Notes under the pieces: model-generated
Told to the model about the DNA's origin: nothing
The model's database searches: none
Seen by the model: the letters and a program-made list of their open reading frames with translations, nothing else
Shown: positions 1 to 60,000 of the stretch, piece by piece
Layout of the letters: each line of letters opens with the position of its first letter
How positions within the stretch are numbered: position 1 is the stretch's first letter
Program-made: the position numbers and the translations under genes
Source: Bolinopsis microptera
Taxonomy: Eukaryota > Ctenophora > Tentaculata > Lobata > Bolinopsidae
DNA: 60,000 nt
Reading direction: 5' to 3'
NCBI RefSeq assembly: GCF_026151205.1
Contig: NC_087081.1
Location: forward strand, 7,623,246-7,683,245

Positions 1-2260
1 CATCAACAACTTTGAACGAAAAAAATGTTTTAAGCTAAAGACTAAAGCTAATCAGGATCTATCAGAGAAATAACACTGCAGTCTAAAGAACCTGTTTTCA
101 AACAAAGCAAAGCATCTCAATGGGTTAACTTATACCACAACATGATAACACTAGTAAAGGCCTTTCATAAGAGCAGAGAGGTTTGCACGACTACAATAAG
201 CATTTATCAGCAGTACTTATGATGCTGCCCTACTTCGCGCAGCTGGAGGGGACAGTATGCAAAAGCTTTAAGACTGTATATGGGAGCAATGACTGCTATT
301 TTTAAAGTCAAGTGATGGGGCGCTTAAAAGACCTATAAAGACTGGGCTTTCACACGGTTGTTACAACGACCACGAGTGGGCCGAGTGTGGACTGACCACT
401 CATAAGAGCAAGACTTATGAGTGCAGCCAAAAATCTAGTGGTGGATTAACAATTAGGGGGGAATTGGAATGATATGCGTAATCGATGATCCCGCTCACAA
501 TTTAAGGGTGGACCACCCTGAATCAGATGGCTTTAATAAAGTCATTTATTGGAGTATTCATTACTAATTCATCGAATCGAGGAGTACGCACCTAAACTGC
601 CATCCAACTCAGATCTTCCCAAGTCAATCAACAAGAAAAACTGTGATGTATTGGAAAATTATTAACTTGTTTAAAGTACTGTCGACTTTTACAGAATCAG
701 AAGCATAAGACTAAGTTAATAACATTTTCGACCTGGTCATTATATCACAGCCGGGAACGATGAGGTGGAATCCCTAGAATGTTTGGCCGTTGGGGCTGTC
801 CTTCAACGTGAGCTAGCTGGGTTAACATTCAACGAAAAGATAAGTTGTTCAAAGGTAAAGTAAAGTAACTTGACACAACTAAGATAGCAGTAAAGTGAAT
901 AATCAAAGACGTTGCGTCGATCTGTTGATAGTGTTTTAACCGTCGAGTACTTGTTGCTATGATAGAGAACTTCAATAGAGGAAATGCCTAACATACGAGT
1001 TAACTGATGTGCCGATGAGCTTATTTGCTCAATATCAGATGAGGAGAAATCTACTAAAGGCTGCTCTTGTATAAACCGAATCTACACTTAAAATTTGCAG
1101 CTACACGATCCACTAGTCATTGATGGAGTGTTGGGCTAATTCATCCAACTAAGCTCAAGTTAAAGTGGACAATTATGGTGAGGTAGCACATGGAGTAGAC
1201 TTGAAGCTTATCCCTAAAAATCGGCAAGATATACTGTGTATTTTTGATGGATATAGCCTTCCTACTAAAGATGCACGACACAAGAGAGAGTAAAAGCGTT
1301 TCTGTGCTAATATTGTCTTGTAAATGAAATCCACCTTTTGTACTGTCACAAAACAACTATTTCTGATAAACAACAATACATAAAAGAACTGATCGACCTT
1401 ATATCTCAAGCATTTTTTACTGTAAATGGTAATGAAGTGATCAAGCTTGTAACGATGCCTGATACGAATAAAGCAAAGAAAACATGAAATGTCATTCCCT
1501 TGGCGAGTGTGGAATTGATGCGCAGAGGATACCTGATTATAGTTCAAGTCTATTAAAACATCATTTCACAGTGACCATCACAATGATATTATCTAATAAC
1601 GAAGAAGGTAAATAGTACAATCAAAGAAATATCACGTCAACTAGATCATAAAGAAAAGGAGATACTTCCTCTAATTCATAGTATTTTCAGGTTGTATAGC
1701 GTCAGTGGACTGTTTTTGTTTTAGCACGTTAAAAGTGCTATAGACAGCTCTCACTTTGATGAGCAAGTTCAGTTGGCAACAATACTTTCGGTGAGAGAAA
1801 TCAAAAGAAAATATTATTGAGCAGGCCACTGTTTCTTGACAGTTACATTTATGGGACAAGAAAAAGACTCATTCTGCTTGAGATTCCTAGCAAACAATAA
1901 GGATGGTAGCGAAAAGAGTCTCAATCCGAATAGCTACCACCAACAATAGCTTCAGCAACGAGCAACATCCTTAGAGCTTACTTTACATACCATAACTGAG
2001 TCATGCTTAACGCTGACAGACTGAATCCCTTGACTACGGCTGAAATTGCTCCTGTGGCACTTACGAACCAGTTGCCACCAGAGTCTAATTTGTGAACTAT
2101 ATAGTTGTACTAGTTCTGTCCGAATGTGGAGAAAGGCCTGTATGACTTCAGATGTATCATGTTAGGAAATATGGCTTCAATTGTTTTGCAGCTTGGGACG
2201 ATGCCATGGTATGAACTTGCGCTAACATTAGACATGATAACCTGAAAACAAGCGAATTTT
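1..2260 (+). pseudogene. Large TIR transposon: broken CXC-domain protein gene (arm 1, partial)
   Basis: This is the 3' part of a long transposon-borne gene, readable only by hopping frames. Around 150-300 it encodes an AER-type segment and then GQYAKALRLYM in a single frame at 250-282. Further on are a YELTxVPMSLF-like segment near 990-1030 and a segment near 1640-1720 where a glycine-cysteine-aspartate motif can be pieced together from the arms. It ends near 2100-2240 in a cysteine-rich region that is clearest in arm 2. From memory, the order resembles long uncharacterised proteins repeated in arthropod, mollusc and cnidarian genomes that end in a tesmin/TSO1-like CXC domain. CXC domains bind DNA through zinc, so a role in binding transposon ends is possible but inferred. 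The start lies before the window. Many frameshifts are present; whether they are biological or sequencing errors cannot be told here. Confidence 0.68.
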
Positions 2261-2329
2261 GATTAATATTAACTGTGTATTAATAATTGTCCATGGTACT
2301 TACTGAAGAATACACAATTAAGACTAACT

Positions 2330-2790
2330 GAATTTGTTATTTGTAGATAAGGAGTTCTTTTATTAATTAGATTTGAAAATAAGCGTAAAAATAATTTGGT
2401 TATATATTTTTTCGAAATTCAATAAAATTGAGAAAAATTTCGAAAAATCCATTTATTTCGAAAATAATGTACTCCCAATCGTTCTGAACTATCATTCGCC
2501 GGCCATAAGTGGCCATTGCGGTCATTTTTCACCCCCTATGAGATCTCCAAGACCTCTGGGAGCCGATTAACAATATTATGGAGGGCGTATGGGTTTCCTG
2601 GAGAAAATGACTATAAAAATTATATGCCTAAATGTTTCAGCTGGACGGTTTTATTTTGATGGTTCCTGGGACCATGACAACACATTCCTGTAGACCAAAC
2701 CTTTGTTACGAATTTGTTTCCACAAGATTGACCCAAAAACACAAATCTTGCCCAAATATTTAGTAAGGTCCCGGGATTAGTAAGTCGTAA
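2330..2790. repeat. Terminal inverted repeat of the large transposon, right end (arm 1)
   Basis: This block matches the reverse complement of the block at the other end of the same element, which is seen complete in arms 2 and 3. Landmarks are a GAGAAAAATTTCGAAAAAT-like stretch, CATTCGCC followed by GGCCATTGCGGTCATTTTTC, and CAGCTGGACGGTTTT. The outer end is close to CTTGCCCTAACTA. The left partner of this arm lies before the window. Confidence 0.78.
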
Positions 2791-2799
2791 ATGTAGCTT

Positions 2800-3540
2800 C
2801 GCATGACTCACAATCTGCGACGTCCGTCCGTGACTTTAATTCCGCTCACTGAAGCACATCTCACAAAACTTGCTACCTATATTCAGTCTAATGCTGTATT
2901 TGCCAACTTATAACCTCGAATCCTACAAGCTTTCTTTGATAGTATAGTAAGCTAACTTTGAATAGAAAATCTTCTTCCTATGCCTTGCAGTTTGCACGTA
3001 AACGAGATTAAGGTGTATCGAAGGAGCGACACAATCGCCCGTGTCGCTCCTGCACAAGGCACACACTCACACTAACCTGGAGGGGGATATTTAAAACATA
3101 CAAGGATATGAAAGGGAATTTTATTAGCAGAGCTTCAAAATACTTGTGTAAATTGTCTATCAGCTCACACTGCAACACTAAGCTCTGCTCCTGTCAACTG
3201 AGCACTTAAGTCCCTTATTAGCACAAATATATCTCTCGCATCATTTCAGTGTCAATGTTTAAACTAAACTCACAACGCTCTTAAAATTAAATACATTTAT
3301 TTGAAAGAATATTATTAGTTCCACATATTCTCCCTAACTATCCCAGTTCATCCGATCGTGCTAGTATAAAAGACAAAATGTATCTTACGCATATTAAATA
3401 TTAGCACGATCAGTGATAGTGGCTGAAATATACATTTGCTTGTTATACGTAACAGATAGATAATAACATTTACAGAAGAGTAAAAATGTCAAATGACAAC
3501 ATGTACTTTTTCATCATCCGGTCGGAGTTGGGCCTCAGAA
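2800..3540. other. Non-coding flank of the large transposon
   Basis: This is AT-rich DNA repeated in arm 2 (about 34990-35780) and arm 3 (about 52150-52985). It includes a CpG-containing stretch near 2815-2830 and a CACAATCGCCCGTGTCGCTCC segment near 3030-3055. I recognise no gene or RNA. Confidence 0.5.
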
Positions 3541-3775
3541 ATGAACCCGTTTCTTACTGATTACGAAGTCAATGTTGTGGACTGCTAGATCTAACCTGTT
3601 TCTTACTGATCACGAAAGTCACTTTGACTGATAGATCTAACCTATTTCTTACTGATCGCGTAAGTGATTGTTGCGGCCGGAGGATTGTTTTCCGGTCACC
3701 GGATTGATTAATATTTAATGTTAGCAAATGAATCCGTTTCTTGCTGATCACGAGTGTTGATAGTAATCTCGTTAA
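3540..3775. repeat. Tandem repeat with TTTCTTACTGATCACGA core (arm 1)
   Basis: At least four imperfect copies of a 45-55 bp unit lie here, starting near 3543, 3593, 3638 and 3729. Each carries the core (G/A)TTTCTTACTGATCACGA followed by AGTCA and then AGATCTAACC. The fourth copy is separated from the third by a roughly 60-bp GC-richer insert. The same array is in arms 2 and 3, so it belongs to the unit. Confidence 0.75.
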
Positions 3776-3789
3776 ACATTTATACTTCA

Positions 3790-4380
3790 TTTGTAATCTC
3801 CGTAATCATTTCTAAAGAAATTGTCTTTATTATTTAGTACAAATTATTGTTATGTAACGAATTGTTTTAGCATCATGACAAATCGATTTGAAAATTATTA
3901 CATGCAATTTCAAATTGTAAAAACTAACTCTACTATAATTCTAGAATAATCTTTGTACATTTACGACCGTCCACGTGAAAGTTGTTAAAACGACATTATT
4001 ATCGGTTTTGGGTAATTATACTTGTGTTAATTATACGTTGTGTTCATTGCGAGCTATATTTAATGGCTGTATACTCGTCGTGAAAGAAATTTTATATGCG
4101 ATAAAAACTGACTAAAAAGAATACTATAAGCTTCCCTTTGTGTGGACCACGGCTTTTTATGTTGCTATTAAAATATACAGAAGAATACTTATATTATTAT
4201 GTAATCCCGTTGGTAAATCTAATTGTATCCAATCGTTGGATTTTAAAAATTTTCAAATTTCTTATTGTACCTACAATTCTCAGTCTTTCAGATTTCCACG
4301 TCTAAAAAACTTCTTGGAATATACATAAACCCTCAATAGAAACCAACATCGCACACGAGTACTGTAAAACCCGGGTTAAC
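3790..4380. other. AT-rich stretch without a gene
   Basis: This AT-rich DNA holds only short open frames that differ between arms. Repeated fragments such as TTAATTATACGTTGTG occur near 4025. I see nothing I can name. Confidence 0.5.
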
Positions 4381-4740
4381 TACGACCTATTGTCAGCAAC
4401 TGCGCGCGCGCACACGTACCATCCTTATGTGTGCTGATCTGTATTGCCTATTCCTACTTGTGAAACAAGCGCGTCACGCAGTACGCGTGGCACAGGCTAT
4501 GTGAAACTTCTGAGTCATCAACTTCTTTCGGAACCCCTTCAAGGACATCGTCGAAGGGATACGAACACTGCATCCTCCCTTAGACATATATTGACATTTA
4601 ACGGTGATACTCGTAGAAATATGTTGTTGACCTACGTTGCATGCCACTTTGTGCGCGTGAGCGCGCGCCGCCGGAAGGCGGAAAATATCTTTGATATTTG
4701 GATACGAATACATATATCAGAAATATTTTTTCTTGAGTGA
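4380..4740. other. GC- and CpG-rich block with hairpin-forming segments (arm 1)
   Basis: A local rise in CpG is set in AT-rich DNA: GCGCGCGCACAC near 4402, ACGCAGTACGCGTGGCAC near 4476, and a run of GCGCGCGCCGCCGG near 4660. The arms agree on a hairpin with arms close to CCCCTTC and GAAGGGG around 4533-4560. It is followed by one copy of block P (TTAACGG then TGATACTCGT) at 4597. The open frames across it are not conserved between arms, so I treat it as non-coding. Confidence 0.55.
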
Positions 4741-4850
4741 CGATGTCAATCCTACGCATTTCGCGATCTGCTTAAGATCTGTGGGGTTTTTTGCGATAAG
4801 CCTTATCTTGATGCGCCACGACCCATAGTGCAGCGCGCCTACAATATTTG

Positions 4851-4900
4851 TTCCAATGAGGTTCCAAAACGCGCTCGTACCTGTTAGGATATAAACCACA
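4851..4900 (+). repeat. Dispersed block Q, copy m1 (arm 1)
   Basis: This is a diverged copy of a short repeat whose consensus over all arms is GACGAGTCCAA, then TCGGCGCGCGTCC, then TGGTAGGTTATAAACCTAC. It is preceded by ATATTTGTTCCA, the tail of block P. The corresponding copies are 33590-33645 and 54301-54347. Confidence 0.7.
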
Positions 4901-5057
4901 AATGACATCCTTCGGAGGACACGGAGCTTGACGTCAGCATGAGCAATTCCAGGAAATTCACAAATTCATGCTGGATAGACATATTTGGAAAAAAACATCT
5001 CTGTTCGGACGTTGACGCCGCCCCTAATTCTAGTCTAGTCGGATAATTAAATTCCTT

Positions 5058-5155
5058 AACGGTGGATAACTCGTAAAATATTTGTTCCATTTTCCATTTT
5101 ACCGCTGACGCGTCCAATTCAGGGCGCGCGTCCCTGGTAGGTAATAAACCTACAA
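5058..5155 (+). repeat. Dispersed blocks P and Q, copy m2 (arm 1)
   Basis: Block P (TTAACGG, then GATAACTCGTAAAATATTTG) starts at about 5056. It is followed about 40 bp later by block Q with ACCGCTGACG, GGCGCGCGTCC and a hairpin close to GTAGGTTATAAACCTAC. ACTCGT in P is complementary to ACGAGT in Q, so the pair could fold. It lies just upstream of the truncated 5' end of LINE-A. Confidence 0.75.
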
Positions 5156-5209
5156 GATCAAAGATAAGTCGAGTAATTATATTTTGCACTCAGTTGAAGC
5201 CATGCCCCT

Positions 5210-6060
5210 CAACTCCTCAGTGAATTACATAGAAGTCCTGTCATAGCAAAAAACTGCATGTACAATGGAATTTGATTGGATCTATCTAAAGCGTTTGACA
5301 CGATCTCACATGAAAAACACTTAATAAAACTAGACAACATGGAATACGTGAAACCCAATAACTCATCGTAGTTAGCTCTCTAATAGATATCACTATGCTC
5401 TGTAATGGCGAAGATCGACAAGCTGCTGTTCTCTTTGGAGTTCCCCAAGGCTTTCTTTTCTCGGACCCTTGCTATTTATAATATTTGTAACGGACTTATT
5501 TAGAACATCTGATCTGGGCAAGTTCATAACTAAATTGCAGATGACACAAACATATTCGTAGTAATGATGTAAAAAAAACTGTATAGAAAGAGCAAACGAA
5601 ATTCTCCGTTTTACACCAGTACATAGATAATAGCAATCTAATACATATAAAATATAAAGAAATGCTGCTACATCACTTCAAACTGTCACGTACCGCTACT
5701 GATAAAGAGGCAGTTTAACGATCAGAATATATTCTAACTCTGAATAATACGTAATACAGCAAGTTATAGAGACCAGTTTTTAGGTTTATTTATGACGATA
5801 GCTAAAATGGAGTGTCCAAATAAGAAGATACAACAACAAATTTCAATGAAAAACAACAATGTTCTTTAGTATCAATTAAAGCAGACAAAAGAATATTTTC
5901 TATATAAATATTACTAGCGACGAACTTATTAGATCAGTATATTAGGGGACATGGAGTAGCAAGAGATTTGACTAAAGGATATACTTTTACAAAGATACGT
6001 ACGAGGAAGAATCCAGGTGTGATACAGGATCGGAGAGTGTCAAGACCAAAAGTTACGCAC
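5210..6060 (+). pseudogene. LINE-A: 5'-truncated non-LTR reverse transcriptase (arm 1)
   Basis: This is a fragment of a LINE reverse transcriptase, the enzyme that copies retrotransposon RNA at a nicked target. Visible motifs in order are DLSKAFDTI(S)H near 5275-5305, LFGVPQG near 5430-5451 (palm motif), and a diverged catalytic F/YADDT segment near 5530-5550. A thumb-like region then encodes FLGVLIDEKLKW-type residues near 5770-5800. There is no endonuclease domain, so the element is truncated within the RT fingers. Frame changes occur every 50-100 bp. The family resembles Jockey/I-group LINEs of invertebrates. About 260 bp of 3'-UTR-like AT-rich DNA follows, up to a T-run. It is clearest in arm 2, where one frame holds most of the domain. 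Confidence 0.85.
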
Positions 6061-6320
6061 CCACCTTTTGCGCCTGAGTTCTTGGTTGGATAGAAATTTA
6101 TGCAAACTTGGTCGTTTATACCTCCAAGTCCCTTTCTTAAAAAGAAGTAGTATTAACTATGTCTAGAGTTTAGCATTCTTTCAATAATAACAATATCCAA
6201 TAAACTCAATATCAATACCAGATAAACCTACCGACTAAATTATTAAATATCATCAATTTAATTCTTCGATAAAAAATTTTATAATTTAAGATATTTAGTA
6301 ACTAAAAACATACAACAGAT

Positions 6321-6322
<2 letters not shown>

Positions 6323-6375
<53 letters not shown>
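6323..6375 (-). repeat. Poly(A) tail of a minus-strand retroposon (T-run, arm 1)
   Basis: A run of 53 T residues marks the 3' end of an element reading on the minus strand. The A-run at 32081-32136 and the T-run at 55787-55840 are the same tail in the other arms. Lengths agree closely, so the tail itself is real. GATGG directly precedes the T-run. Confidence 0.88.
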
Positions 6376-6377
<2 letters not shown>

Positions 6378-6900
6378 CGCGACACCCACTGAACACCGTC
6401 ATATAGAGGTTGCGACCACCACTTGGGGAGCTTCCTACTGGAACCTACATCGCATTAAGCCCCTTCCCTGAGGGCCACTGGATGATAATACCTGCCAGGT
6501 ATCAGCCAATCGGGGGTTGCACTCCTAGAGATTTTACTAACTTGGTCCTAGGGAAGTTCTGGTGTTACCCTGCGCTCAAACACCATGAAAGGATGACCCC
6601 GTGTGCTTATAATGCTGGCTCTTTAGACCGGTGAACGAGGTTTGCTGAAAGGCGGTTGCGGTGTGCTAACGTAGATAGGTGTTGTGTGGGGAACTGTAAT
6701 TGATACATATCTCCTTTTGGTGCCTGAGCTAAAACGTGAGGTTTGTGACGCTCACGTGAGGTGGACTCTCACTCAGTCCAGAAATAACGGACATGGGATC
6801 CATATTTACGACACAGGAAATACTGTTCTGATCCAGGGCCAATTCTGCCATTATCACACATTACACACCGGTTGGAGTGTAACTGTGATGGTAACTACTA
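6376..6900 (-). mobile_element. 3' module of the poly(A)-tailed retroposon (arm 1)
   Basis: About 520 bp lie between the tail and the minisatellite and are conserved in all three arms. Read on the minus strand, it ends in GGTGTCGCG directly before the tail. It includes GGCTGATACCT(T)GGCAGGTAT near 6500 and a TGACGTCACAAACCTCACG-like segment near 6740. Short frames differ between arms. Either it is the 3' UTR of LINE-B, or it is a SINE-like module of a composite element. Confidence 0.6.
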
Positions 6901-6902
6901 TA

Positions 6903-7432
6903 CATTACTCCCATAAAACTCCCACAATTAGCGATACTCCCATTGCACTCCCACATTGTAACGATACTCCCCATTACACTCCCACAATGTAGCGATACTC
7001 CCAAACACTCCAACATTGTAGCATACTCCAAATCACTCCGCACCAATGTAGCGATACTCCCATTACACTCCCATATTGTAGCGATACTCCCATTACACAC
7101 CCACATGTAGCGATACTCCCATTCACCCCATATTGTAGCGACTCCCGTTAAAACTCCCACATTGTAGCGATACTCCATTACACTCCCACTTGGTAAGCTG
7201 ATACTCCATTACAATCCCATAATAGTAGCGATGACTCCCTATTACACCCATATTGTAGCGATACTCCCATTACACTCCCACAATGAAGCGATTACTCCCA
7301 TTACACTCCCATAGTTGTTATCGATACTCCCCATTACACTCCCACATAGTACGATACTCCATTACACTCCCAGATGTAGCGATACACCCATACACTCCCA
7401 CATTGTAGCGATACTCCCATTACACTCTCCGA
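6903..7432. repeat. 30-bp minisatellite (arm 1)
   Basis: There are about 17-18 tandem copies of a 30-base monomer starting GTAGCGATACTCCCATTA and continuing CACTCCCAC/TATT. Many adjacent copies alternate between CCCACATT and CCCATATT, which suggests a 60-bp higher-order unit. Because 30 is a multiple of 3, two minus-strand frames stay open through perfect monomers. One gives the decapeptide ECNGSIATMW. Copy number is nearly equal in the three arms. Confidence 0.93.
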
Positions 7433-7439
7433 GGGGGGC

Positions 7440-7958
7440 GGCAAATTTGCAAACAGGGGGGCTGCAAAAACCCAGCGGGCTAATTAAGTAGAACTGCAAG
7501 CAGAACGTCTAATATTATCAATGGTTTATATCCGTTAGGCTTGTCATGATCGAAATACCGCTCCGCGCGTGAGTAGTGTCAAGTGGGAGAGACCAGGTGA
7601 GTGTTATTGGTACTACGGGAAGCCATTCTGTGCGCGCACCCGCTGTTTATGACTGCGCGCCAATCTTTGCATATATCTGGGCGTTAGTCGATTCGATGCC
7701 GTAAGTCCTGGTTACATAAGGGCGCCACTAGCAGCTGTCGGCTCAAAGTAGACCCGAGAGCTGGCTATACAAGGCCCACATGGCTTTTGCTATAGCCTCT
7801 TGAGTTAAACTGTTGATTCATACCACCATGCATTGGCGAGTCCACTCGCAGCACTAGATTCTTTTATAGACACTAATGCTTCCTCGCCACATAGTGCAAT
7901 GCGGACAGACAAGAGCCCTGAAGAACAGTAAAACCTGACAAGGATTACCTCACCCAAC
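7440..7958 (-). mobile_element. CpG-containing module between minisatellite and LINE-B coding region (arm 1)
   Basis: This segment is conserved in three arms (30440-30990 and 56910-57450). It contains GCAAACAGGGGG next to the minisatellite and TGTTTATGACTGCGCGCCAA near 7645. At its far edge, about 7950, lies CAACAGATGG, which resembles the AAAAGATGG at the T-run. It could be the distal part of LINE-B or the 5' module of a composite retroposon. No stable open frame is shared by the arms. Confidence 0.5.
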
Positions 7959-7959
7959 A

Positions 7960-10490
7960 GATGGTTAAAAAGCCCCAAAATCGATTTAAAGATTATTCTG
8001 TCTATAGAACAATCATGATAGTAATAGTAAGTTGCGCCGATGCAATTAGACTTGATAACTGCAATTTAAAATTGTTGGATCCAAGATCTGTTAAGTCTGC
8101 TTGCCTTGCTTGTTATAATAGTGCTTTTTTCCTCAGTTTTTATCAAGCTAATGGACGTTTCTAAATCAATGCTGAAGTAAAAAATTTTTTAGAACAGCGT
8201 CAAAGCTGGCTGCATAACAAAAAGGTATTTGATTTATTTAGGGAGAATAACCGAGACACGTTCACGGTTTGAAATGTGATAGTCTCATAAGGAGTAGGGC
8301 ATGGTACTTGATAATCTTGAAAATCTAAGATGCAGGAATATTTGTACAAGTTTTATCCGTATTATTTTAATCTAATTAAAAATGGGTTTTTGTATGTTTT
8401 CCTTTTCAAAGTGTTTATTGGTCCCAGTTTTGCATACCGTATGGTCTAAGTATTGCACATGTGGATTGTTATCTAAATATAGTCCAGTCGCCAAAAGATC
8501 CTATACATGCTTCTGTGTGATAAAAGACTATCATTGACGGGGTTTATATTTTGGGGGGGGGGGGGGTGATTTTTTCTTTTTGAGGACAACAGCCCCACAC
8601 CCGTAAACCGGTACCTGAATGTATTCAAAAAGAGCATTTATATATTTTCAAAAAATAGTTCAGAGGTATCGTAGTGCCGCAGGTCTGCATATTGGCACCA
8701 GTCAAAAATAAAAAAGAACGCAGTGTTTTTACGGATGTAGTGCATTGGCAATACCCAATTATTACTTACTAGCTATCACACACCTAAGAATTTTTATATC
8801 TTTGGTAATCCTTGACTTTAGTAAAACCTACCAATGATGAATATTGATCAAGAATCACTAGCCGGATAGCAAATGGTCTGTCCGTGCACAGGTTCATCAA
8901 TATTCAGAGGCAGGTAAATGTAGTATGCACATTGGACCTTTGATATGAAGTAATTACATTCATGTAAATCGTGAGACATGTTTAAGTACTAAGTAGGCTT
9001 TTATGAGAGTTGCTTCTCTATATGGGTCCTGATATAAGATATTAGTGTCATACAGCATAAAGTAACAAAGTTCATCTCACTGTCTGAAACATTTTTACTA
9101 TATCGTTCAAATACAATAGGAAGAGTAACGGCCCTAGAATTGACCCTTGAGGTACTCCCAAAATTCACGTCCATTGTTTCTGATGGTACATGCGTATACA
9201 GTACATACTGCTTTCTGTTAGTCAAATAGCTATTTAGTCAGGTAAGTGCTGTGCCCCTAATACCGGTGATGAATTTAATTGCATAAAAGAATATCGTTGA
9301 TCAAGGGTATCCGAAGGCTTTGCTCCAAGTCATGCATATCCCTAGTACATGTTTTATTTGCTTTGCAGAGACTAGTACGGAGGTCTATAGATTTGTCAGA
9401 GCATGGGTGGATATAATGGCCTATTCCAATCAAACTTGTAGTCCTGTAGTACAACCTTGTAGATGTGAAGAAAAAAAATGTGAATAAGGCGTTGTTAAAT
9501 AACCTCTCGAATATCTGATCCAAATAAAGGTAAATTGATACAGCCGATAATTTTCAGCATTCTTTATTGTCTTTCTTGTAAATGAAATAACTTTACCTGT
9601 TTTATAAAAATACTTGGGAATGAACCACTTTGTAATACAATGTGTTGAAAGCCTAGCAAAAGTACCTGCAATGATTTTGCCGTTTTATACAACAACTACA
9701 GGTTGTCAATGGCCTTACCCATTTGAAAATCTCGGAACACCTCTTAAAATTTTCTCTTCATTAGTTTTCTTCCAGGTATATGGATCTATACCGTAATATA
9801 GACATAAACTGACAATGAATTCAACTGGTTCCAGAGAAAAACTAGTGTTTTGACAGTACATTTTTAATTGGAGATTACTCAAGCTAGATTTAAATTCACA
9901 GAATTTGTTACAATAATTCGTCTGCAAGTAACTCTCTGGAGCCACTATGACGAAAAACGTCTTTACATCAGAATAATTTTGCACGGAGTTCCATTATAAT
10001 TTCCAGGTCTTTTTTGAGTTCATGCTTGTACTGATCTCAATTTTGAGTAAAGCACAGATCCTATGCCATCTTTATTGAGCTCTTGAAAACTGTCGAATTC
10101 CTAGTATATATGTGCTGTTGGATCCGCCATCAGGTAGTTTAATGTACAAGGTCTTCTTCCATTCGAAATACAACCAGGCTTTCTTGTCGATGAGTTAATA
10201 TGCCCTAGGGTGATCCAAGGTTGGTTATGCTATTACGTTAGTGGTTCAAGAGTGAGCAGTTTGCAAGACAAATCTATCTTTCTTGAAATAACTCACGTAA
10301 AGATCAAATGTGTTCAGCTGTGGAGTGGAACCTATCTTAATCGTTTTCTATGTCAAAACAGAGCTTCTCTGAAGTTAGCATTACTATATCTAGTGTATAG
10401 TAATTTTGTACTGATGAATTCAGGTTTGGCACAGAGTCAGGGGACAGTACAATAAGAGTATATAGGGTGATGGTGGAGATCTGGTTCAAT
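7960..10490 (-). pseudogene. LINE-B: non-LTR reverse transcriptase with upstream linker (arm 1)
   Basis: This is a LINE polyprotein on the minus strand, heavily frameshifted. From its 5' side the linker region near 10180-10050 encodes DKKAxLYFEWKKTLY-like residues followed by NSxKTWE, typical of the endonuclease-RT spacer. FP(K/S)xFKTGKV-type residues follow near 9630-9600, then NYRPIS-like and IFExxxxNxLF residues near 9560-9480. DLSKAFDT(L)DH lies near 9330-9290. [10 protein letters not shown] is intact at 9129-9158, and a YADD-region remnant lies near 9050-9075. The distal part down to about 8180 is the RT C-terminal region. I could not identify an endonuclease domain upstream of 10490. 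The family is Jockey/I- or CR1-like. It probably continues to the tail at 6323. Confidence 0.85.
8545..8580. other. Arm-1-specific G/T-rich insertion
   Basis: A segment with a run of about 13 G residues interrupts LINE-B here. It is absent at the same place in arm 2 (about 29830) and arm 3 (about 58045), where the flanks join directly. This is probably a sequencing artefact. Confidence 0.75.
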
Positions 10491-11540
10491 AGAGCTCTTG
10501 TGGGTTTTTATCTTTTGGTTAACTTTCTGTGATTGGACTCGGTATTTTCGTCCCAGCCGAGTGGGACGATGCTTGCTCGCCAGTTAAGCTATACGCAGTA
10601 GATGACACTAATTTTCTACCAACCACAAAATATTAAATATAAAAAGTGTCCAGTAGCGCAAAGCGATAATTGATAATATATCGACGCCGGTCCGTCGTGG
10701 TGAGAGTTATCTGAACCAACAGCAAGCCCCTACGATTGCGTCACCACTGGTGACAAGCATTTTGGTTTGTTGTTTATTGTGTGAAAGGGAACAGTACTGA
10801 TTAATTCATCATTCGAATTTTAATAACGACGAGCTATATATACCGTTTCATCTTAGACTAATGGATTCAATCTTTTATTATATGATTAGATTTTATAAAC
10901 GAACTTGGCATACAATAGATTATAATGCGGAGGTTGGCTGGCTCTTCTATAATAAATACGACACTTCAATTTACAAGGAATGCTGCTAGAGATAAGACAA
11001 AATGATTTATCAACTATACATGCAGCATGAGTAGACTGGTGGATAGCCTCGTAAAAACGATCCGTAAAAGTCAATGCGGACTCGGTCCTTGGTATAGTCT
11101 GTCGGAATAATGTCCATTAACTAACGTTACTGCTTCGTATTTTAAACCAATAGTGAGTATCTAAAATATGACAGCTTTAAAACCGATTAAGTGATGAAAT
11201 GAAATGAAATACCTGACAAATCACACTCTTATAAGCGCAAAAGCAAGAGTCACTCGTAGTGAAGTATGATTTCTAGAAACTGTTAAATTAATTTTGGCGC
11301 TCACAGGTCCTCATGAAATGATTGCCGGCATAAGGTTCGTAAATGCCAGGGCCCTTCAAGCTTAATTATCAACCTTATGAGCAGTCAACCAACGCGTGGG
11401 CTTATTTTTATTATTGAATGTTTTGAATGTTATTAATAAAATACCAAAATTATAAAAATTTTGTTTTCCAAAAAAATTTGTTTTCTCAAATTTCGACAAA
11501 AATTTTAACTGGCGATACTTGTAAAATATTTGATTTAAAT
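10490..11540. other. Possible 5' part of LINE-B, unresolved
   Basis: On the minus strand, 10886-11074 has a 62-codon open frame that is partly conserved in arm 2 (27300-27520), and the joining segment near 10530-10580 matches 27820-27870. Position would suit the endonuclease domain of LINE-B, but I see no endonuclease catalytic motif. The rest is AT-rich without recognisable content. Confidence 0.35.
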
Positions 11541-11596
11541 AATACCGAGGACGAGTCCAAATCGGCGCGCGTCCTTGGTAGGTTATAAACCTACAC
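11509..11596 (+). repeat. Dispersed blocks P and Q, copy m3 (arm 1)
   Basis: This is the cleanest copy of the repeat. Block P-like ACTGGCGATACTTGTAAAA is at 11508. Block Q at 11541-11596 has GGACGAGTCCAAA, TCGGCGCGCGTCC and the perfect hairpin GTAGGTTATAAACCTAC (7-bp stem, 3-base loop). The mirror copy is 26810-26862. Confidence 0.78.
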
Positions 11597-11599
11597 AAA

Positions 11600-48575: not shown

Positions 48576-48579
48576 AATA

Positions 48580-48990: not shown

Positions 48991-48999
48991 AAATATCAA

Positions 49000-51660: not shown

Positions 51661-51739
51661 TGATTAAAATAAACTGGTATTAATAATAGTCTTGGTACTT
51701 TTACTGAAATACACAGTTTTTGACTAACTGTAATTGTTA

Positions 51740-52150
51740 TTTGTAGATAAGTTTTAAATAGATTGTAAAATAATCTTTAAACAAAATTAGGTGTATTTTT
51801 TTTCGAAATTTCATAAAAAATGAGAAAAATTTCAAAAAATTCCATTTATTTCAAAAATAAAGCTCCAATCGATTTTCTGAAACTATCATTCGCCGCCCAT
51901 AATGTGGCCATTGCGGTCATTATTTCACCCCCTATGGAGATCTCAAGACTTCGGAGCCGAATAACCAATATTAGTGGGTAGGGCGTATGGTCCTGTAGAA
52001 TAATACTATAAAAATTTTTCCCAAAAGTTTTCAGCTGGACGGTTTTTTTTTTTGTGGTTCCTGACATAGACAACACATTCCTGTAACAAACCTTGGTTAC
52101 GAATTTGTTCACTAGATTGAACCCATAAACAGCAATTTCTTGCCTCTAAC
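51740..52150. repeat. Terminal inverted repeat of the large transposon, right end (arm 3)
   Basis: It has AATGAGAAAAATTTCAAAAA near 51819, CATTCGCCGCCCATAATG near 51888, CAGCTGGACGG near 52032 and ACAACACATTCCTGTA near 52071. It is the complement of 48580-48990. Element length end to end is about 3.55 kb. Confidence 0.82.
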
Positions 52151-52154
52151 TATT

Positions 52155-52975
52155 TAAGTAAGGTCCGATTAGAAGTCGTAATGTAGCTCGCTGACTCACA
52201 ATCTGCGACGTCGTCGTGACATTAATTTCCGCTCCTGAAGCACATTCTCACAAAACTTGCTACCCGGGTGTGGTGGCCCCCTATATTCAGTAAGCTGTAT
52301 TTGCCAACTTCATAACCTCTGATCCACAAGCTTTCTTTGCTATAAGTAGCTAACTTTGAAATGAAAATCATCTGTCCCCTTATGCTGCCAGTGCACGTAA
52401 CCCGAGATTAAGAGGTACGAAGAGCGTCACAATCGCCCGTAGGGGTTGTGTTAATATTGTATGGTTATTTGTTTTGTGGGTTTTGGGGGTTTGTGTCGCT
52501 CCTGCACTGCACACACTCACACTAACCTGAGGGATATTTAAAACATACAAGTCACGTGAAAGGATTTTATTAGCAGACTTTCGAAAATACTTGTTAAATG
52601 TCTTCAGCGTCACACTGCACACTAAGCTCGCTCCTGATCAACCGACACTTTATGTCCTATTAGCACAAAAGAGGAATCCTCGCATCATTTCATTTTCAAT
52701 GTTTAACATCCTCACAACGCAATTAAAATTAAATACATTTTATTGTGAAAATATTATTAGTCCACTATTCTCCCCAAACTTCAAGTTCAACCGATCGTGC
52801 AGTAGTAAAGAACAAAAAGTATCTTACGCATATAAATATTAGCACGATCAAGTGATAGGGGCTAAATTATCATTGCTGTTTTACGATAACAGATTATATA
52901 TTCTACATTTACATAATAAAAGGTAAATTATGTCAAATGACAACATGTACTTTTATCAGCATCCGGTCGTAGTGT
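52155..52975. other. Non-coding flank of the large transposon (arm 3)
   Basis: Counterpart of 2800-3540. No gene is recognised. It contains the arm-specific insertion listed separately. Confidence 0.5.
52441..52496. other. Arm-3-specific G/T-rich insertion
   Basis: About 55 bp of G/T-rich sequence splits the CGCCCGTGTCGCTCC segment that is continuous at about 3037-3051 in arm 1. It is probably an artefact of the same kind as those at 8545 and 16638. Confidence 0.78.
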
Positions 52976-52984
52976 CCTGCAGAA

Positions 52985-53225
52985 AGAACCCGTTTAATTT
53001 TTTTTTTGTTTCTTACTGAATACGAAGTCAATAGTTTGGTACTGAAGAACTAACCTGTTCTTACTGAAACACGAATTCAATGATGGACTGAAAGATCGTA
53101 ACCTATTTCTTACTGAACGCGAAGTGAAATGATGCGTCCGAGGAAGATGGTGTCGTCACCGGATTTGTTATATGTTATATTTATGCAAATGAATCCGTAT
53201 CTTGCGATCACGAAGTGGTTATGTA
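52985..53225. repeat. Tandem repeat with TTTCTTACTGATCACGA core (arm 3)
   Basis: Copies begin near 53008, 53056, 53104 and 53197 and match the arm-1 array in number and order. The first is followed by ACGAAGTCAAT. Confidence 0.74.
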
Positions 53226-53229
53226 TCTC

Positions 53230-53860
53230 GTTATCATTTATACTTCAATCTGTAATCTCCGTAATTCATCTATGAAATGTCTATATTTATTTATACATAT
53301 TATTGTTTAATTTACGTAAAAAGTTTTATATAGCATTCATGACCGAATCATATGAAAATTATATACATGCAATTCAAATTGATAAATTAGTACAAATCTC
53401 TACAATAAATCTAAATTAGTCTTTGTAACAGTGTACGCCGTCCACGTGAAGTTGGGGGTTTAAAACAACATTTTATCGGTTGTGGTTAATTATACGTTGT
53501 GGAAATTATACGTTTGTGTGTCATTGCAGAGCTATATTTATTGGCGTAGTACTCGGTCGGACAGATATTTTTGATGCGATAAAAACTGACTAAAAATGAA
53601 ACTAATAGCTTCCTTGTGTGACCACGGCTTTTTAGATTTCATTATAATATACAAAGAATACTTATATTTTTATGTAATCTGTTTAATTCAAATTGTATTT
53701 CAATCGTAGATGTAAAATTTCTAATTTCTTATTGTACCACAATTCTGTAGTACTGATTTACAACGTCGAAAAACTTCTTGAAAGACATAAACCCTCAAAT
53801 AGATACCAAGCATCGCACACGTTGTACGTGCACCCGGGTTAATACGACGCTATTGTCAGC
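53230..53860. other. AT-rich stretch without a gene (arm 3)
   Basis: Counterpart of 3790-4380. Nothing is recognised. Confidence 0.5.
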
Positions 53861-53861
53861 A

Positions 53862-54180
53862 CTGCGCGCGCGCACACGTACCATCCTTATATTGGCGATC
53901 TGTATGTGCCTATCCTACTTGTGAAACAGAGCGCGTCACGCAGTACGCGTAGCACATGCTATGTGAAAACTTCTTATCATCAACTTTTTTCTGTCGGAAC
54001 CCCTTCAGACATCGTCCGAAGGGGAGTACTACACATGCACTACATATATAACATTTAACGGTGATACACGAAAATATTTTTTGACCTACGTTGCAATGCC
54101 ACTTAGTGCGCGTGAAGCGCGCGCCGCCGAAGGCGGAAAAAATCTTTGATATTTGGAGACCAACATATTCAAAATATTGG
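53862..54180. other. GC- and CpG-rich block with hairpin-forming segments (arm 3)
   Basis: It contains CTGCGCGCGCGCACACG near 53861, CGCAGTACGCGTAGCACATG near 53939, and CCCCTTC with GAAGGGG around 53999-54025 as a hairpin. Block P (TTAACGGTGATAC) is near 54056, and GCGCGCGCCGCCGAAGGCGG near 54117. The 159-codon minus-strand frame 53910-54389 crosses it but is not conserved. Confidence 0.55.
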
Positions 54181-54300
54181 TTCTGGATGACGAAGTCAAT
54201 CTTCGCTTCGCCGATCTGCTTAAGATCTGTGGTTGCGAGAAGCAGCATTTGATGCCCGCGCACGACCCAGTAGTGCATCGCGCAACAATATTTGTTCCAA

Positions 54301-54347
54301 ATTGAGGAGTCCAAATCGGCGCTCGTCCTGTAGTTATAAACCAACAA
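54301..54347 (+). repeat. Dispersed block Q, copy m1 (arm 3)
   Basis: GAGGAGTCCAAATCGGCGCT is followed by CGTCCTGTAGTTATAAACC. It is preceded by CAATATTTGTTCCAA. Confidence 0.72.
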
Positions 54348-54502
54348 ATTGACATCCTTTCGAAGGACACGAGACTCTGACGACAGCAATGAGGCAATTA
54401 GAAATTATCAAATTCGATGCTGGATAGACAGATTTGGGCTAAAAACTATCTCTGTTCGGACGTTGAAGCGCCAAAGTCTAGTCGAGTCGGATAATTATAA
54501 GT

Positions 54503-54604
54503 CTTAACGGGTTGAGATACTCGTAAAAGATTTGGTCCAATTTCCCATATATTACCGCTGACGAGTCCAATTCGTCGCGCTTCCTGTATTTAAAAACCTC
54601 CAAG
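54503..54604 (+). repeat. Dispersed blocks P and Q, copy m2 (arm 3)
   Basis: Block P is CTTAACGGGTTGAG and then ATACTCGTAAAAG. Block Q follows with TTACCGCTGACGAGTCCAAT and a damaged hairpin. It sits immediately 5' of LINE-A, as in arms 1 and 2. Confidence 0.74.
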
Positions 54605-54689
54605 ATCAAAGAAAAGTCGAGTCATTATATTTTGCACATCAGTTGAAGGCCATGCCCTCAACTCCTCAGTGAATTACAAGAAACCTGTC

Positions 54690-55525
54690 CTTAGCAAAAA
54701 CACTGCATGATACTTGGAAATATTTATTGAATCTACTAAACGTTTGACACGATCTCACATGAGAAAACTACTTAGATAAACCTAGACACCTATGGGAATA
54801 CTGGAAAACGCCAATAGACTCATCGCTTAGTTATCTCTCTAATAATATCAATATGTCTCTGAACTGTGGCGAAGAGTCTGACAGCCTGCCTGTTCTCTTT
54901 GGAGTTTCCCCAAGGCTCTTGTCTCGGACCCCTTGCTATTTATAATATAATGTTAACGACTATTTAGAACAACTGATCTGGGCAAGTTCATACTATTCAG
55001 ATGACACAAACAAAATCGAAGTAGATGAATTAGAAAAAAACTGTATGAAAGAGCAAAAACGAAAATTCTCCGTTTGGTTACACCAAGTAACAAGAAATGC
55101 ACTCTATTACAATATAAAATAAAGAAATGCTGCCTACATTCACATCAATCTGTCACGTACAGCTACAGATAATGAGCAGTAACGAATCCAAAATATACTA
55201 ACTCTGAATAATACGTAAATAAAGCAAGTTAAGAGTCCAACGTTTTTTAGGTAGATATTAATTGACGAAAGCAAAAATGGGTAGTCCAATAAGAAGAAAA
55301 CACAATTTCAAGAAACAACAATTTTATTTAGTATCATTAAAGCCGACAAAAGTATATTTTCCTATATTATATAACTAGCACTAACTTTAGATCAATATCT
55401 TATGTGGACTTGAGTAGCACGATGATTGACTATAATGTATATACATTTGTACAAAATACGTTCGAGAAGAATCCAGGTGATACAGATCGAGAGTGCAGAC
55501 CAAAAGTTTTACGCACCACACCAGA
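54690..55525 (+). pseudogene. LINE-A: 5'-truncated reverse transcriptase (arm 3)
   Basis: It contains IES(T)KRLTRSH-type remnants of the DLSKAFDTISH box near 54725-54765 and GVSPRLLSRTPCYL-type frameshifted remnants of VPQGSVLGPLL near 54898-54940. The catalytic SDDT(N) is near 55000-55014. Residues of the thumb (LIDESKN/KWVV) lie near 55255-55290. Same truncation point as in the other arms. Confidence 0.84.
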
Positions 55526-55784
55526 CCTTGCCTCCTGAGTTCATGTGTGGATAAGAAATGTTAAGAAAAAAAAACAAACTGTCGTTCATACCCAGTCCCT
55601 TCTTAAAAGAAGTATATAAACTAGTCTAATGTTTAGCTTCGTTCAATAATAACAATAATCAATATAATCAAATATCAATACCAATAACCTACCGAATACA
55701 GATATTATATATCAATCATTAATTCATTCCGAAAAAAATTTCTATTGATATAGATTTTTAGTATCTAAAAACATTACAAAAGAT

Positions 55785-55786
<2 letters not shown>

Positions 55787-55833
<47 letters not shown>

Positions 55834-55840
55834 TTTTTTT
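55787..55840 (-). repeat. Poly(A) tail of minus-strand retroposon (T-run, arm 3)
   Basis: This is a run of 53 T residues with one G. It follows ACATTACAAAAGATGG and precedes CGCGACACC. Confidence 0.9.
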
Positions 55841-56380
55841 CGCGACACCCAGACCACCGTCAATAGAGGATGGCGACCTCCACTTGGGAGCCCCCCCCCG
55901 TTCCCCCAGGAGTCCATCCATCTGCTTAAGCCCCGTCCCTGAGGCCACTGGAGATATACCTGCCAAGTATCACCGAATCGGTTGCACCTCCGGAGATTTA
56001 CTTAACTTGTCACTAGGACGTTCTGGTGTTTACCCTGGCCTGCATCAACGACCATGAACAGGATGACTTCCGTGCTGATAATGCTGCTCTTGAGACTTGG
56101 TGAGACGTAGGTTCTAATGGCGTTGCGGTGTGCTAACGTTTGATAGTGTGTTAGGTGGTGGGAACTGGGGTTTATTGAAACTACTCCATTTGGAGTGGCT
56201 GAGCTAAACGTGAGGGTTTGTGACGTCACGTGAGGTGTGACTCCTCACTCAGTCCATAAATAACAGGAGCAGGATCATATTTACGACTCCAGAAATTACA
56301 GTTCGATCCAGGGTCCATTTAATGGCCATACACACCTTACAGCACTTTTGGTGTGGTAACTGTGATGTGTAACAACTATA
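55841..56380 (-). mobile_element. 3' module of the poly(A)-tailed retroposon (arm 3)
   Basis: Counterpart of 6376-6900. The minus-strand frame 56002-56229 (75 codons) has SxxxLTHYQTLA- and RNAIRTYVSPSLK-like content, which is partly visible in arm 2. That leaves open a short coding segment. Confidence 0.58.
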
Positions 56381-56906
56381 CATTACTCCAAAACACACCA
56401 CAATGTAGCGAGACTCCCAGTGCACTCCCATCATTGTCTTGCGATACTCCAGTACACGCCCACAATGTAGCGATACTCCATAACACCCACATTGAAGCGG
56501 ATACTCCCATTACACACCCACAAAGTAGCGATACTCCCGTACACTCCCATATTGTACGATTACTCCATTACACACCCACATTGTAGCGATACTCCCATTA
56601 CACTCCCATATTGAAGCGATACTCCCATTACTCCCACAATGTAGCGATACCCCATAACACTCCCACATTGAAGCGATACTCCCATTACACTCCCATATGG
56701 TAGCGAATACTCCCATTACACTCCCATATATGCAGCGATACTCCCATACCTCCCACACTGTATGCGATACTCCCATTAACACTCCCATATTTAGCGATAC
56801 TCCCATTTACACTCCCACATTGTAGCGTACTCCCATTACACTCCATATTGTAGCGATACTCCCATTACACTCCCACATTGTAGCGATACTCCCCTTACAC
56901 TCTCCA
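56381..56906. repeat. 30-bp minisatellite (arm 3)
   Basis: This is the clearest copy of the array, with monomers of GTAGCGATACTCCCATTA plus CACTCCCACATT or CACTCCCATATT alternating. The minus-strand frame 56510-56806 stays open across about nine monomers and repeats ECNGSIAT. Confidence 0.94.
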
Positions 56907-56909
56907 TGG

Positions 56910-57450
56910 GGCGGTCACATTTGCAAACAGGGGGCAGCACAACCCACTGGCTAATTAATGTAGAGTACAGTCAAGCAAACGCTTATAATTTAACAAGTGT
57001 ATAATCCGGTGTTTGCTTGTCATGATCGACATACCGCACCGCGGCGTGAGTTAGTGACATCTTGGGGAGTCGGTGAGTGTTATTGGTACTAGCGGGAAGC
57101 AGTTCAGTGCGCCACCCGCTGTTTATGACTGCGCGCCAAATCTTTGCTTATATCTGGGCCGGTTAGTCATCGTTTGCCGGTATAGTCCTGGTACAAATAA
57201 GGTGGCCCCACTACGCTGTCGGCTCTATATGTAACCCGAGACAGGCGTAATTCAAGGCCCACCGATGGCTTGTGCGGAGTTTCCTCGAGTGTTTAAACGG
57301 TGTATTCTAGCCCACCAAGGCATTGGCAGTCCCTCGCTACACAAGATTCTTTTATAGACACAAATCTGCCTCTCCCAAAGTGCCGTATGCACAGACGATG
57401 AGCCCTGGAGAACCAAAAACCTGACAAGGATTCTCACCCAACAGTTGTTA
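56910..57450 (-). mobile_element. CpG-containing module beyond the minisatellite (arm 3)
   Basis: Counterpart of 7440-7958. It includes GTTTATGACTGCGCGCCAAA near 57120 and CACCCAACAG(T)TGTTAAAAAG near 57437. Confidence 0.5.
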
Positions 57451-60000
57451 AAAAGCGCCAAAATCGATTTGGCAAGATTTTCTGTCTATAGTACAATCAT
57501 GAAAGTAATAGTAAGTGGCGCCGCTGCAATTATACTTGATACGCAATTTAAAATTGTTTGAAGTCCGTAGTATCTTTTAAGTCATCTGCCTGTGCTTGAT
57601 TAATAGTGCTTTGTTCTCAGTTTTATCAGCTAATGACGTTTCTAAGCAATTGCTTGAAGTAAAAATTTTTTTATGAACAGCGTTTCCAAAGCATGGCTGA
57701 CATAAACAACAAGGTATTTGATTATTTTAGGAAAAACCGTGAGACTCGTTTGCACGGTTTTGAAATGTTGAAAGTCTCATAAAGGGGAGTATGGGCAGTA
57801 TGTGGGACTTGATAATCTTAGAAAATTCGAAGATGCAGTGATAATTGTACAAGTTTTGAGCGTAAGTAGTTTTATTCTATTTAAAAAATGGTTTTTGTAT
57901 GTTCCCTTTTTCAAAGTGGTTATGGTCAAGTTTTTGGCATACCGGTGTCTGGTCTAGTATGCACATGTTATTGTTTATCTAAATAGAATCAAGGTCGCCA
58001 CAAGGGATCTTATACAGTGCTTCTGTGTGATTAAAAGACTACATTGACCGTTCTTTGAGGAAACACCCCACACACTAAACCGTAACTGAGATGTGATTCC
58101 AAAAAGAAGCATTATATAATTTTCAAATAAAGTTCAGAAGGTATCGAAGCCGAAATCTGCAGATTGCACCATCATATATCGCAGTTTTTTACAAGTATCA
58201 TGTGGGCAACCAGATTTAGCTTACTATCTAAAACAACACCTAAAAGTTGGTATCCTTGGCTTATATAATAACCTTACCATTGATGAATATTGATCTATAT
58301 TTTCATCAAGCAGGATAGCAAGATGTCTGGTCCGTGCACAGGAGTCATCATATCCGAGGCAGGTTTAAAATGTAAGTAGCACATTTGGACATGATATGAA
58401 GATATGTACATTCATGTAAATCGAGACATATTAAGTACTAAGTTGGCTTTTTTGTATGTTCTTCTCTATTGTCTTATATGAAATATTAGTTCATCAGCAT
58501 AAAGTACAAATTTCAGCTCACTGTCTGAAAAGCGTTTACTATCATCGTTCAGATACAATAGAAGTAACGCCCTAGAATTGACCATGTGGTACTCAAATTG
58601 CACGTCCATTGTTTCTGATGTACATCGTTTATACATAACATACTGCATTTCTGGTTTATCAAATAGCTTTTAGTAAGTTAAGGGCTGTGCCCCAAATACC
58701 GTAGAATCAGTGATTTGCATAAAAATATCGTGATCAAGTGATCGAAGGCTGTGCTCAGTCCAATGAATAACCCTAGGACAGTTTATTGGCTTGCCAGAAC
58801 TTATAACGGAGTCTATAATTTGTGAGAACATGGGTGTAGAATGGCCTTTTCTAATCCAAACTGTGAGTCGTTTATTACACCTATAGATTGTGAAAAATTA
58901 TGATGCGTTATAAATTACCATCTCGAAGATCTTTACCAAGATAAGGTAATCTTGATACAGCCGATAATTTTCAATGCTTCTTTATTGTCTTCTGTTAATA
59001 GGAATAACATTACCGAGATTTTAAAAATACTTAGTGAATGTACCACTTTGTTATACATGTTTTTGAAAAGCTAGCCAAAGATCCCTGCAATGAGTTTTGC
59101 CGTTTATTTACAACAACTACAGGTGGGTCACTGGCTTAACCTTTTGAAAAATCTCGAATCACCTCTATAATTTCTTCTCCATATAGTTTTCACGCAGGTA
59201 TATGGAGTCAGATACCGAAAATAACAGAACTGAGCAATGATTCTACTGGTCGCAGAGAAAATACTAATTTTTGACAGTACATTTTTCTTATTGAGATTAC
59301 TTGCAAGAGAGTAAAATTTTCACAGAATTTGTTACAATTATTCGTCTGCAATAACTCTCAGCCATCTATGACAAAATCGTCTTTACATCTAGAATATTTT
59401 TGCCACGGTCAATGTAAATTTCCCAGGTCTTTTTTTGAGTCATGCGCGTACTTCTCGATTTTTTGATATACACATAGCTTTGCCATCTTTATTGAGCGTG
59501 AGAAACTTGTCGAAGTTCTTGTAGTATATGTTGCTTGTTTGGATCCCCATCAGGTAGTTTTAATGTACAAGTCTTCTTCCATAATCCGAAATACAACCTA
59601 GCTTTCTTCTTGTCGATGGAGTTAATGATGCCTGGTGATCCAAGGGTTTGGTTTTCTGTTACATAAGTGGGTTCTAGGAGTTAGAAGTTGCAAGACAATC
59701 TATCTTTATCTTGAAATAACTGCACGAAGAGACAATGTGTTACAGCTGAGTTGGAACCCTATCTATATCGTTTTCTATTCAAGACAGAGCTTCTCTAAGT
59801 TAGCATTCCTATAGTCCGTAGAGGTAAAAGTAATTTTGTCTGATGAATCAGGTGTTGGCACAGAGTGCAGGGAAAGTCTCAATAAGAGTGAATATAGGGT
59901 GCAGGTGGTAGATCTTTCAATAGAGCTCTGTTGTTTTATCTTTGCTAACTTGCAGTGATTATGGACTCGGTATTTCGTCCCTCCGAGTGGACATGCTATG
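57450..60000 (-). pseudogene. LINE-B: reverse transcriptase (arm 3, runs off the window)
   Basis: Minus-strand counterpart of 7960-10490. The VPQGSILG region is near 58570-58595, where the complement reads ACCACATGGTCAATTCTAGG, and the frame 58466-58648 includes SETMDVQF and SDSELKFVLYAD. The catalytic YAD is therefore better preserved here than in arm 1. The linker region with EWKKT-type codons lies near 59560-59590. The window ends within its 5' part. Confidence 0.84.

Follow-up and report, generated by a model that had tools for sequence, protein, structure and literature searches.

A mirrored triplicate in a Bolinopsis microptera contig, probably formed by slices of one unsplit raw read pasted into the assembly

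Palindromic PacBio (Pacific Biosciences) reads, in which one raw read carries forward and reverse passes of one insert, arise from missed adapters or amplification and are the target of the Pacasus program (PMC6218980). Fold-back artefacts, treated with Breakinator (PMC12870357) and reported as inverted-repeat chimeras of nanopore ligation (PMC13141652), switch strand at one and the same locus with no adapter letters in between; they are judged per breakpoint and are commonest in nanopore data. A comparable structure is the dog bone of origin-dependent inverted-repeat amplification (ODIRA), with ends closed at pre-existing interrupted inverted repeats of 2–14 bp, the 3′ end being joined to a recessed 5′ end (PMC4689423, PMC10766183). 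Raw reads are also used to fill gaps: LR_Gapcloser aligns 300-bp tags and pastes the raw read between the nearest aligned tags, by default requiring read and scaffold distances to agree within 20% (PMC6324547), and its fills had a mean identity of 87.7–90.4% in the DENTIST benchmark (PMC8848313). Here we describe a 60,000-nucleotide stretch of the ctenophore Bolinopsis microptera (C10:7623246–7683245, contig NC_087081.1, in an assembly of 264.65 Mb and 232 contigs; hereafter the window), which is very probably part of one uncorrected PacBio-type continuous long read (CLR), slices of which appear at no fewer than nine places, presumably former gaps, across seven contigs. Among the papers listed in literature searches, none describes a dumbbell read lacking adapters that served to fill several gaps, which is no proof that such an account does not exist.

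Comparison of the window with itself showed extended inverted matches about two centres, with the outer parts matching each other directly, bearing out an earlier interpretation drawn from the letters alone (the sequence-only reading), which had proposed a forward, inverted, forward triplicate. Positions 1–19378 form a partial forward pass (R1), 19378–44046 a complete inverted pass (R2) and 44046–60000 another partial forward pass (R3); three copies are thus present as proposed, but the middle one alone is whole. Long arm-to-arm alignments show 79–81% identity, and alignments of 2–8.6 kb with E values printed as 0.0 exclude chance as the source of the mirror pattern. Two of the landmarks said to pair across both axes, the homopolymers and the minisatellite, do so: a T53 run (6323–6375, forward) has counterparts in A56 (32081–32136) and T54 (55787–55840), and a 30-bp minisatellite at 6906–7427 (forward) recurs at 31002–31523 (inverted) and 56398–56902 (forward).

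Other parts of the sequence-only reading needed adjustment. The two axes exist, but the positions given for them, 19257 and 44010, are the midpoints of loops read once per turn, the strand switches lying at about 19378 and 44046. The proposed unit of 24.7 kb is correct for the read (approximately 24.7 kb), the clean copy described below measuring 24.4 kb. Differences between arms had been called mostly single-base indels; gaps do form the majority (59%), but not nearly all, as the longest arm-to-arm alignment has 1064 gaps among 1801 differing columns, the other 737 being mismatches. The pattern also extends past the window, over C10:7557363–7683530, the read on C10 ending at 7683530, 285 bases beyond the window.

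Genome searches with two edge pieces of the unit located it once, in clean form, at C5:4152765–4177427. Among the matches listed, this is the one site, besides mirrored copies and dispersed repeats, that matches both edge pieces fully with their spacing kept. The stretch C5:4150001–4180000 was aligned to the window, with C5:4150001 counted as position 1 of the clean coordinates, which gave a forward block at window positions 1–19378 (in two pieces), an inverted block at 19378–44050 and a forward block at 44041–59997. Pass R1 corresponds to C5:4158211–4177426 (88.6% and 87.8% identity in its two pieces), R2 to C5:4177180 down to approximately 4152765 (86.95% over its whole length) and R3 to C5:4152812–4168755 (87.6%). 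Passes are therefore 87–89% identical to the clean copy, against about 80% to one another. The clean stretch contains no large palindrome, the longest internal inverted repeat listed being 358 bp; it runs without N past both ends of the unit, its flanks are continuous, and neither turning junction of the read is present in it. The homopolymer landmark reads T59 there, and the minisatellite lies at C5:4165091–4165616.

Slices of the same read occur at no fewer than nine sites on seven contigs, amounting to about 563 kb (0.21% of the assembly): C5:5248979–5312809, C5:9236904–9301933, C6:19876689–19881015, C8:15958756–15979685, C10:7557363–7683530 (which contains the window), C10:14328464–14342508, C11:~15009480–15054741, C12:1347539–1449969 and C13:15314294–~15435043. 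Nine is a lower bound, some full-length identical matches, in several cases that of the window's own place, being absent from the search results. The slices are 100% identical in every overlap compared, their edges differ between sites, and taken together they form a union of about 165 kb of a single read (7549393–7714733 in C10-based coordinates, with letters from the C11, C10, C12 and C13 fills). The analysis of the fills covered edges, turns and matched pieces, the edges coming from searches and cut-out pieces; the lower edge of the C11 fill and the upper edge of the C13 fill were set by comparison with the clean copy only, and the ends of the union, covered by C11 at one end and C13 at the other, were assigned to the same read by continuity. 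Among the matches listed to junction-side pieces, full-length mirrored pairs beside the junctions are found only in fills.

The differences between passes have the character of sequencing error. Aligning seven pieces, drawn from six passes, to the clean copy with linear scoring, and setting apart insertions longer than 15 bases, gave 3.2–3.7% substitutions, 3.5–5.2% insertions and 3.8–5.5% deletions. G and T make up 70–79% of the deleted bases in the reading direction in all seven pieces, forward and inverted alike; because this bias follows the reading direction in both orientations, the inverted pass is a reading of the opposite strand made in the same manner. Shared substitutions and deletions were compared in 13 of the 21 piece pairs, leaving out the eight with fewer than 3,000 common positions and excluding homopolymer positions. 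Substitutions to the same base at the same site numbered 49 versus 46.6 expected (13 pairs), and deletions shared by passes of opposite direction 44 versus 39.1 expected. Errors are nearly independent between passes, while copies related by descent would have far more variants in common. Being indel-rich, nearly independent and biased along the reading direction, the arm differences are typical of raw long-read error and not of old duplication, as had been supposed from the letters of the window.

The T59 run of the clean copy is read as 53–59 letters in each of the five passes aligned there. Nanopore base calling at such an error rate would not keep a run of this length. Because it was kept, the raw read appears to be PacBio-like, and a nanopore origin was rejected on this ground together with the scarcity of errors shared between passes; we infer the platform from these properties.

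The read continues in other fills, so that more turns are available than the two visible in the window. Six independent turns use the same two junctions without exception. At the three turns of the first kind (R−1 to R0, R1 to R2, R3 to R4) the read passes from clean positions 27422–27427 forward to about 27180 inverted, and at the three of the second kind (R−2 to R−1, R0 to R1, R2 to R3) from about 2765 inverted to about 2818 forward. The strand switch is placed in AAAAG in the first kind and in CAA in the second, microhomologies of 5 and 3 bp; for the noisy R3-to-R4 turn the best split lies 2–5 bases away from the others. Each turn has a loop that is read once. Loop 1 (window 19137–19378, forward, start approximate) comprises 242 nt lying between the 5-bp inverted-repeat arms CTTTT/AAAAG and ends at the strand switch; loop 2 (43999–44046, inverted, start approximate) comprises about 47 nt lying between 3-bp inverted-repeat arms (CAA) and ends at the second switch.

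Since the arms abut within one base at each of the six turns, a 45-base adapter could not fit between them. The letters of the window were searched with the SMRTbell adapter sequence, and no adapter was found at either of its two axes (best local score 13 there); the best score in the window was 21, near position 18841 and at least 300 bases before the first axis, compared with 19 in one shuffle, and the other four turns were judged by their abutting alignments. Because a missed adapter leaves adapter letters and symmetric arms, and random drop-out would vary between turns, the likeliest origin of the loops is the template itself, both ends of a 24.4-kb duplex being closed with the outward 3′ strand turned onto the recessed 5′ end. 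The template was thus probably a closed, adapter-less dumbbell. It differs from palindromic reads of the Pacasus type in lacking an adapter at the turns, in showing the same asymmetric loops at six turns and in making at least six turns within a read, and from described fold-back artefacts in that both ends are closed and the read runs round repeatedly.

We strongly favour the view that the mirrored pattern is an assembly artefact and not a real genome structure. The simplest explanation offered by the sequence-only reading, that a single circularised molecule was read several times over and the passes were never split, is upheld by the near-independent raw-type errors, the single clean and non-palindromic copy, the shared reading-direction bias and the recurrence of the same turning points at six of six turns; its alternative, a real inverted amplicon in the chromosome, gains little support from a clean locus that is single and lacks the junctions. 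The template would have been a 24.4-kb fragment of C5 with both ends folded back and closed, the outward strand having turned at one end at a 5-bp inverted repeat, leaving a loop of 242 nt, and at the other at a 3-bp repeat, leaving a loop of 47 nt. Such closed ends most likely arose in library preparation, where a fragment with long 3′ overhangs may fold back at short complementary stretches and then be filled in and ligated. The resulting endless molecule would survive exonuclease clean-up and could be primed at a nick or within a loop. A polymerase circling the closed dumbbell for at least six turns would produce alternating forward and inverted copies and, with no adapter in the loops, the software would have had no cutting point and would have put out a single read, at least 165 kb long. 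Afterwards, a gap closer probably matched repeats in the read to repeats tens of kilobases from gaps and pasted uncorrected slices into nine or more of them on the seven contigs.

This last step bears on how the fills came to lie where they do. The fills have sharp edges, beyond which the flanks examined lose register with the read, and none of 17 flank pieces (1–10 kb) at paste edges gave a match continuing the read in register; placement by matches directly beside the paste edge was rejected for this reason. Short or weak repeat matches do occur in the flanks to the left of C10:7557363, to the right of the C6 fill, to the left of the C13, C8 and C11 fills and to the right of C10:14342508, and likewise in the far piece C10:7693191–7703190.

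Three repeat copies at greater distances, 24–51 kb from the fills, stand in register with the read. One on C12, running from 1473855 to at least 1476898, is 98% identical to the clean unit, lies 23.9 kb beyond the fill and corresponds to a repeat of pass R4 still visible in the C13 fill; in common coordinates its near end is at 7708315 versus 7708314 in the read, and its far end is 25 bases off. The next pass, R5, is in no listed fill and was extrapolated from R4 and R3, which extends the read by up to about 14 kb. The near end of a repeat copy at C5:5340721–5344295 lies 48 bases from the place extrapolated for R5, and that of a copy on C6 (near end 19825854) 47 bases from it; if both are correctly assigned, the read is about 180 kb long. 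Five repeat copies among the matches listed lie less than 60 kb from an edge, and three of these fit within 60 bases, where the chance fit per copy is about 0.24% and that of three of five about 10^-7, as estimated after the fact.

Five further candidate anchors were rejected: C11:14971881 (about 6 kb out of register, 37 kb from the edge), C5:5191224 (out of register, 58 kb from the edge), C13:15224405 (2–3 kb off at a distance of 83–90 kb, an ordinary copy of a repeat that an insertion has divided), C12:1260792 (off by about 1 kb, some 85 kb from the edge) and C8:16092045 (out of register, 112 kb away).

Because three repeat copies tens of kilobases off stand in register with the read, the gap closer probably matched distant repeats and then filled by coordinates. 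The fills resemble those of LR_Gapcloser, the accuracy of which was benchmarked in the DENTIST paper, in having raw letters of about 88% accuracy between flanks placed by scattered matches (PMC6324547, PMC8848313). They differ in that a single read was used nine times over; about 3 kb of flank holds no match in register, and the copies that are in register stand 24–51 kb away. Under the 20% rule of LR_Gapcloser, the declared gaps would have to be about as long as the fills.

Several observations weigh against reading the window as slices of an adapter-less dumbbell read. Single-molecule real-time (SMRT) sequencing needs a primed, adapter-bearing template, and the priming of a dumbbell that lacks adapters is unexplained. 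Substitutions (3.2–3.7%) are more frequent, and insertions less dominant, than is usual for PacBio CLR data, part of which excess of substitutions may come from the alignment of neighbouring indels. Passes of the same direction share 85 deletions versus 65.9 expected, an excess that context-dependent error can explain. As to placement, the far end of the C6 repeat copy is 211 bases off, its minisatellite being shorter; of the five listed copies lying less than 60 kb from an edge, two do not keep register, and in-register copies were found on one side only, at three of the nine sites, with none found for the other sides. Finally, the surveyed PacBio HiFi and Mas-Seq samples contained virtually no fold-backs, and Iso-Seq 0.03% (PMC12870357).

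Among the alternatives, we consider it unlikely that the read stems from a whole-genome-amplification concatemer, formed by a strand-displacing polymerase that turned back at each end and went on around its own product, the long molecule then being sequenced once. More than 85% of rearrangements in multiple displacement amplification are inverted, with complementary priming of 2–21 nt in more than 70% of junctions (PMC1855051), and palindromic PacBio reads after amplification are known (PMC6218980); nevertheless, a product of at least 165 kb would have to survive as a single insert, and there is no sign here of amplified DNA.

If the chromosome truly carried an array of inverted amplicons, traversed once by a single very long read that was later pasted, this would account for turns that are identical, free of adapters and sited at short interrupted inverted repeats, as the junctions of fold-back and ODIRA amplicons are (PMC10766183). 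We regard such an array as very improbable, as the clean C5 locus is single, gap-free and continuous with its flanks, mirrored full-length pairs occur only in fills among the matches listed, and a linear molecule of at least 165 kb would be needed. Moreover, slices identical between seven contigs yet 20% apart within cannot come from evolution. The length of 24.4 kb is that of an ordinary library insert, which also counts against a chromosomal array.

No more credible than the array, in our judgement, is closure of the molecule in a living cell, as a hairpin-capped dog bone produced by template switching at two diverging replication forks, a single such molecule having been read for at least six turns. 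The template postulated here shares with the ODIRA intermediate the form of a linear duplex whose closed ends carry single-strand loops, sited at interrupted inverted repeats that are short (5 and 3 bp here), closure in this case being deduced from the repeated turns. The preferred spacing in ODIRA is 40–80 bp, which the 47-nt loop fits and the 242-nt loop far exceeds, and here we have a single insert-sized molecule with no origin or amplicon shown. In the passages cited, the ODIRA authors thought it unlikely that the dog bone intermediate would ever be detected in vivo (PMC4689423), and they count single-read inverted junctions as artefacts (PMC10766183).

Slightly less probable still is an ordinary SMRTbell whose adapters at both ends went unrecognised by the software, missed adapters being a known fault of PacBio reads (PMC8848313, PMC6218980). 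This would predict symmetric arms with adapter remains, whereas no adapter-like sequence stands at the window's two axes and the arms abut asymmetrically at six of six turns, the same 242 or 47 nt missing on return. Old inverted duplications that have since diverged would fit inverted repeats of about 80% identity, but can be dismissed as next to impossible, since the changes are private to each pass and centred on the clean copy, substitutions are not shared beyond chance in the comparison described above (49 versus 46.6), the 1171-aa frame that the clean copy carries is interrupted in the passes, and the error bias follows the reading direction.

Irregularities confined to one pass were also noted. 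A G-rich low-complexity burst inside R1 (window 16629–16785), containing a G42 run, has no counterpart in the clean copy and forms the gap between alignment pieces 1–16628 and 16786–19378, over which the clean copy advances merely from 24817 to 24824. A second burst of this kind is a G26 run at 35575–35600. Such G-rich bursts in single passes are probably local base-calling failures inside the raw read.

The unit itself is rich in repeats. A long interspersed nuclear element (LINE) frame of 1171 aa, encoding a putative endonuclease and reverse transcriptase, is intact in the clean copy (C5:4171658–4175173) and broken in the window, where it occupies approximately 13448–16985 on the forward strand with an inverted counterpart at about 21400–24960; the longest closed open reading frame (ORF) in the window is 167 aa. 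The element as a whole lies at L003:178–5173 (C5:4170178–4175173), and has two open frames, the first GDSL-esterase-like and the second of endonuclease/reverse transcriptase type. Several LINE copies elsewhere match the raw letters at 88–89% over about 5.6 kb, and because this is about the raw error itself, the LINE of the clean unit probably represents a young family. Just outside the right end of the clean unit starts a frame with a predicted tubulin-tyrosine-ligase domain (Pfam TTL, E 4.4e-85; L003:7583–8701, C5:4177583–4178701).

Part of a dispersed repeat of about 3.5 kb opens the window (1–2756, forward; clean ~7380–10930), with counterparts at approximately 35770–38900 (inverted) and 48585–52157 (forward). 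Among the matches listed, copies elsewhere show 83–88% identity to the raw letters; two of them, examined as cut-out pieces, have 98% identity with the clean unit, and two copies elsewhere stand in register with the read beyond a fill. In stretch L001 this repeat is nested inside a second element (clean ~5400–8211 and 10930–12650), the halves of which are joined in copies on C3, C5, C7 and C8. Near these nested repeats, an ORF at L001:5837–6448 has a FLYWCH domain barely at the Pfam cut-off. A copy of the minisatellite-bearing repeat at L041 (C13:15224183–15230943) is interrupted by an insertion of about 5.4 kb.

The template is of interest as a seemingly closed dumbbell without adapters, and the gap-closing failure as one to which such reads may be prone: a repeat-rich read running back and forth has each repeat in both orientations and would thereby be able to fit many gaps. 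Further gaps in this assembly may likewise have been filled from other raw reads. The pasted slices create false inverted duplications, false 100%-identical interchromosomal duplications and false broken transposon copies, and studies of duplications or transposons in this genome would be misled by them.

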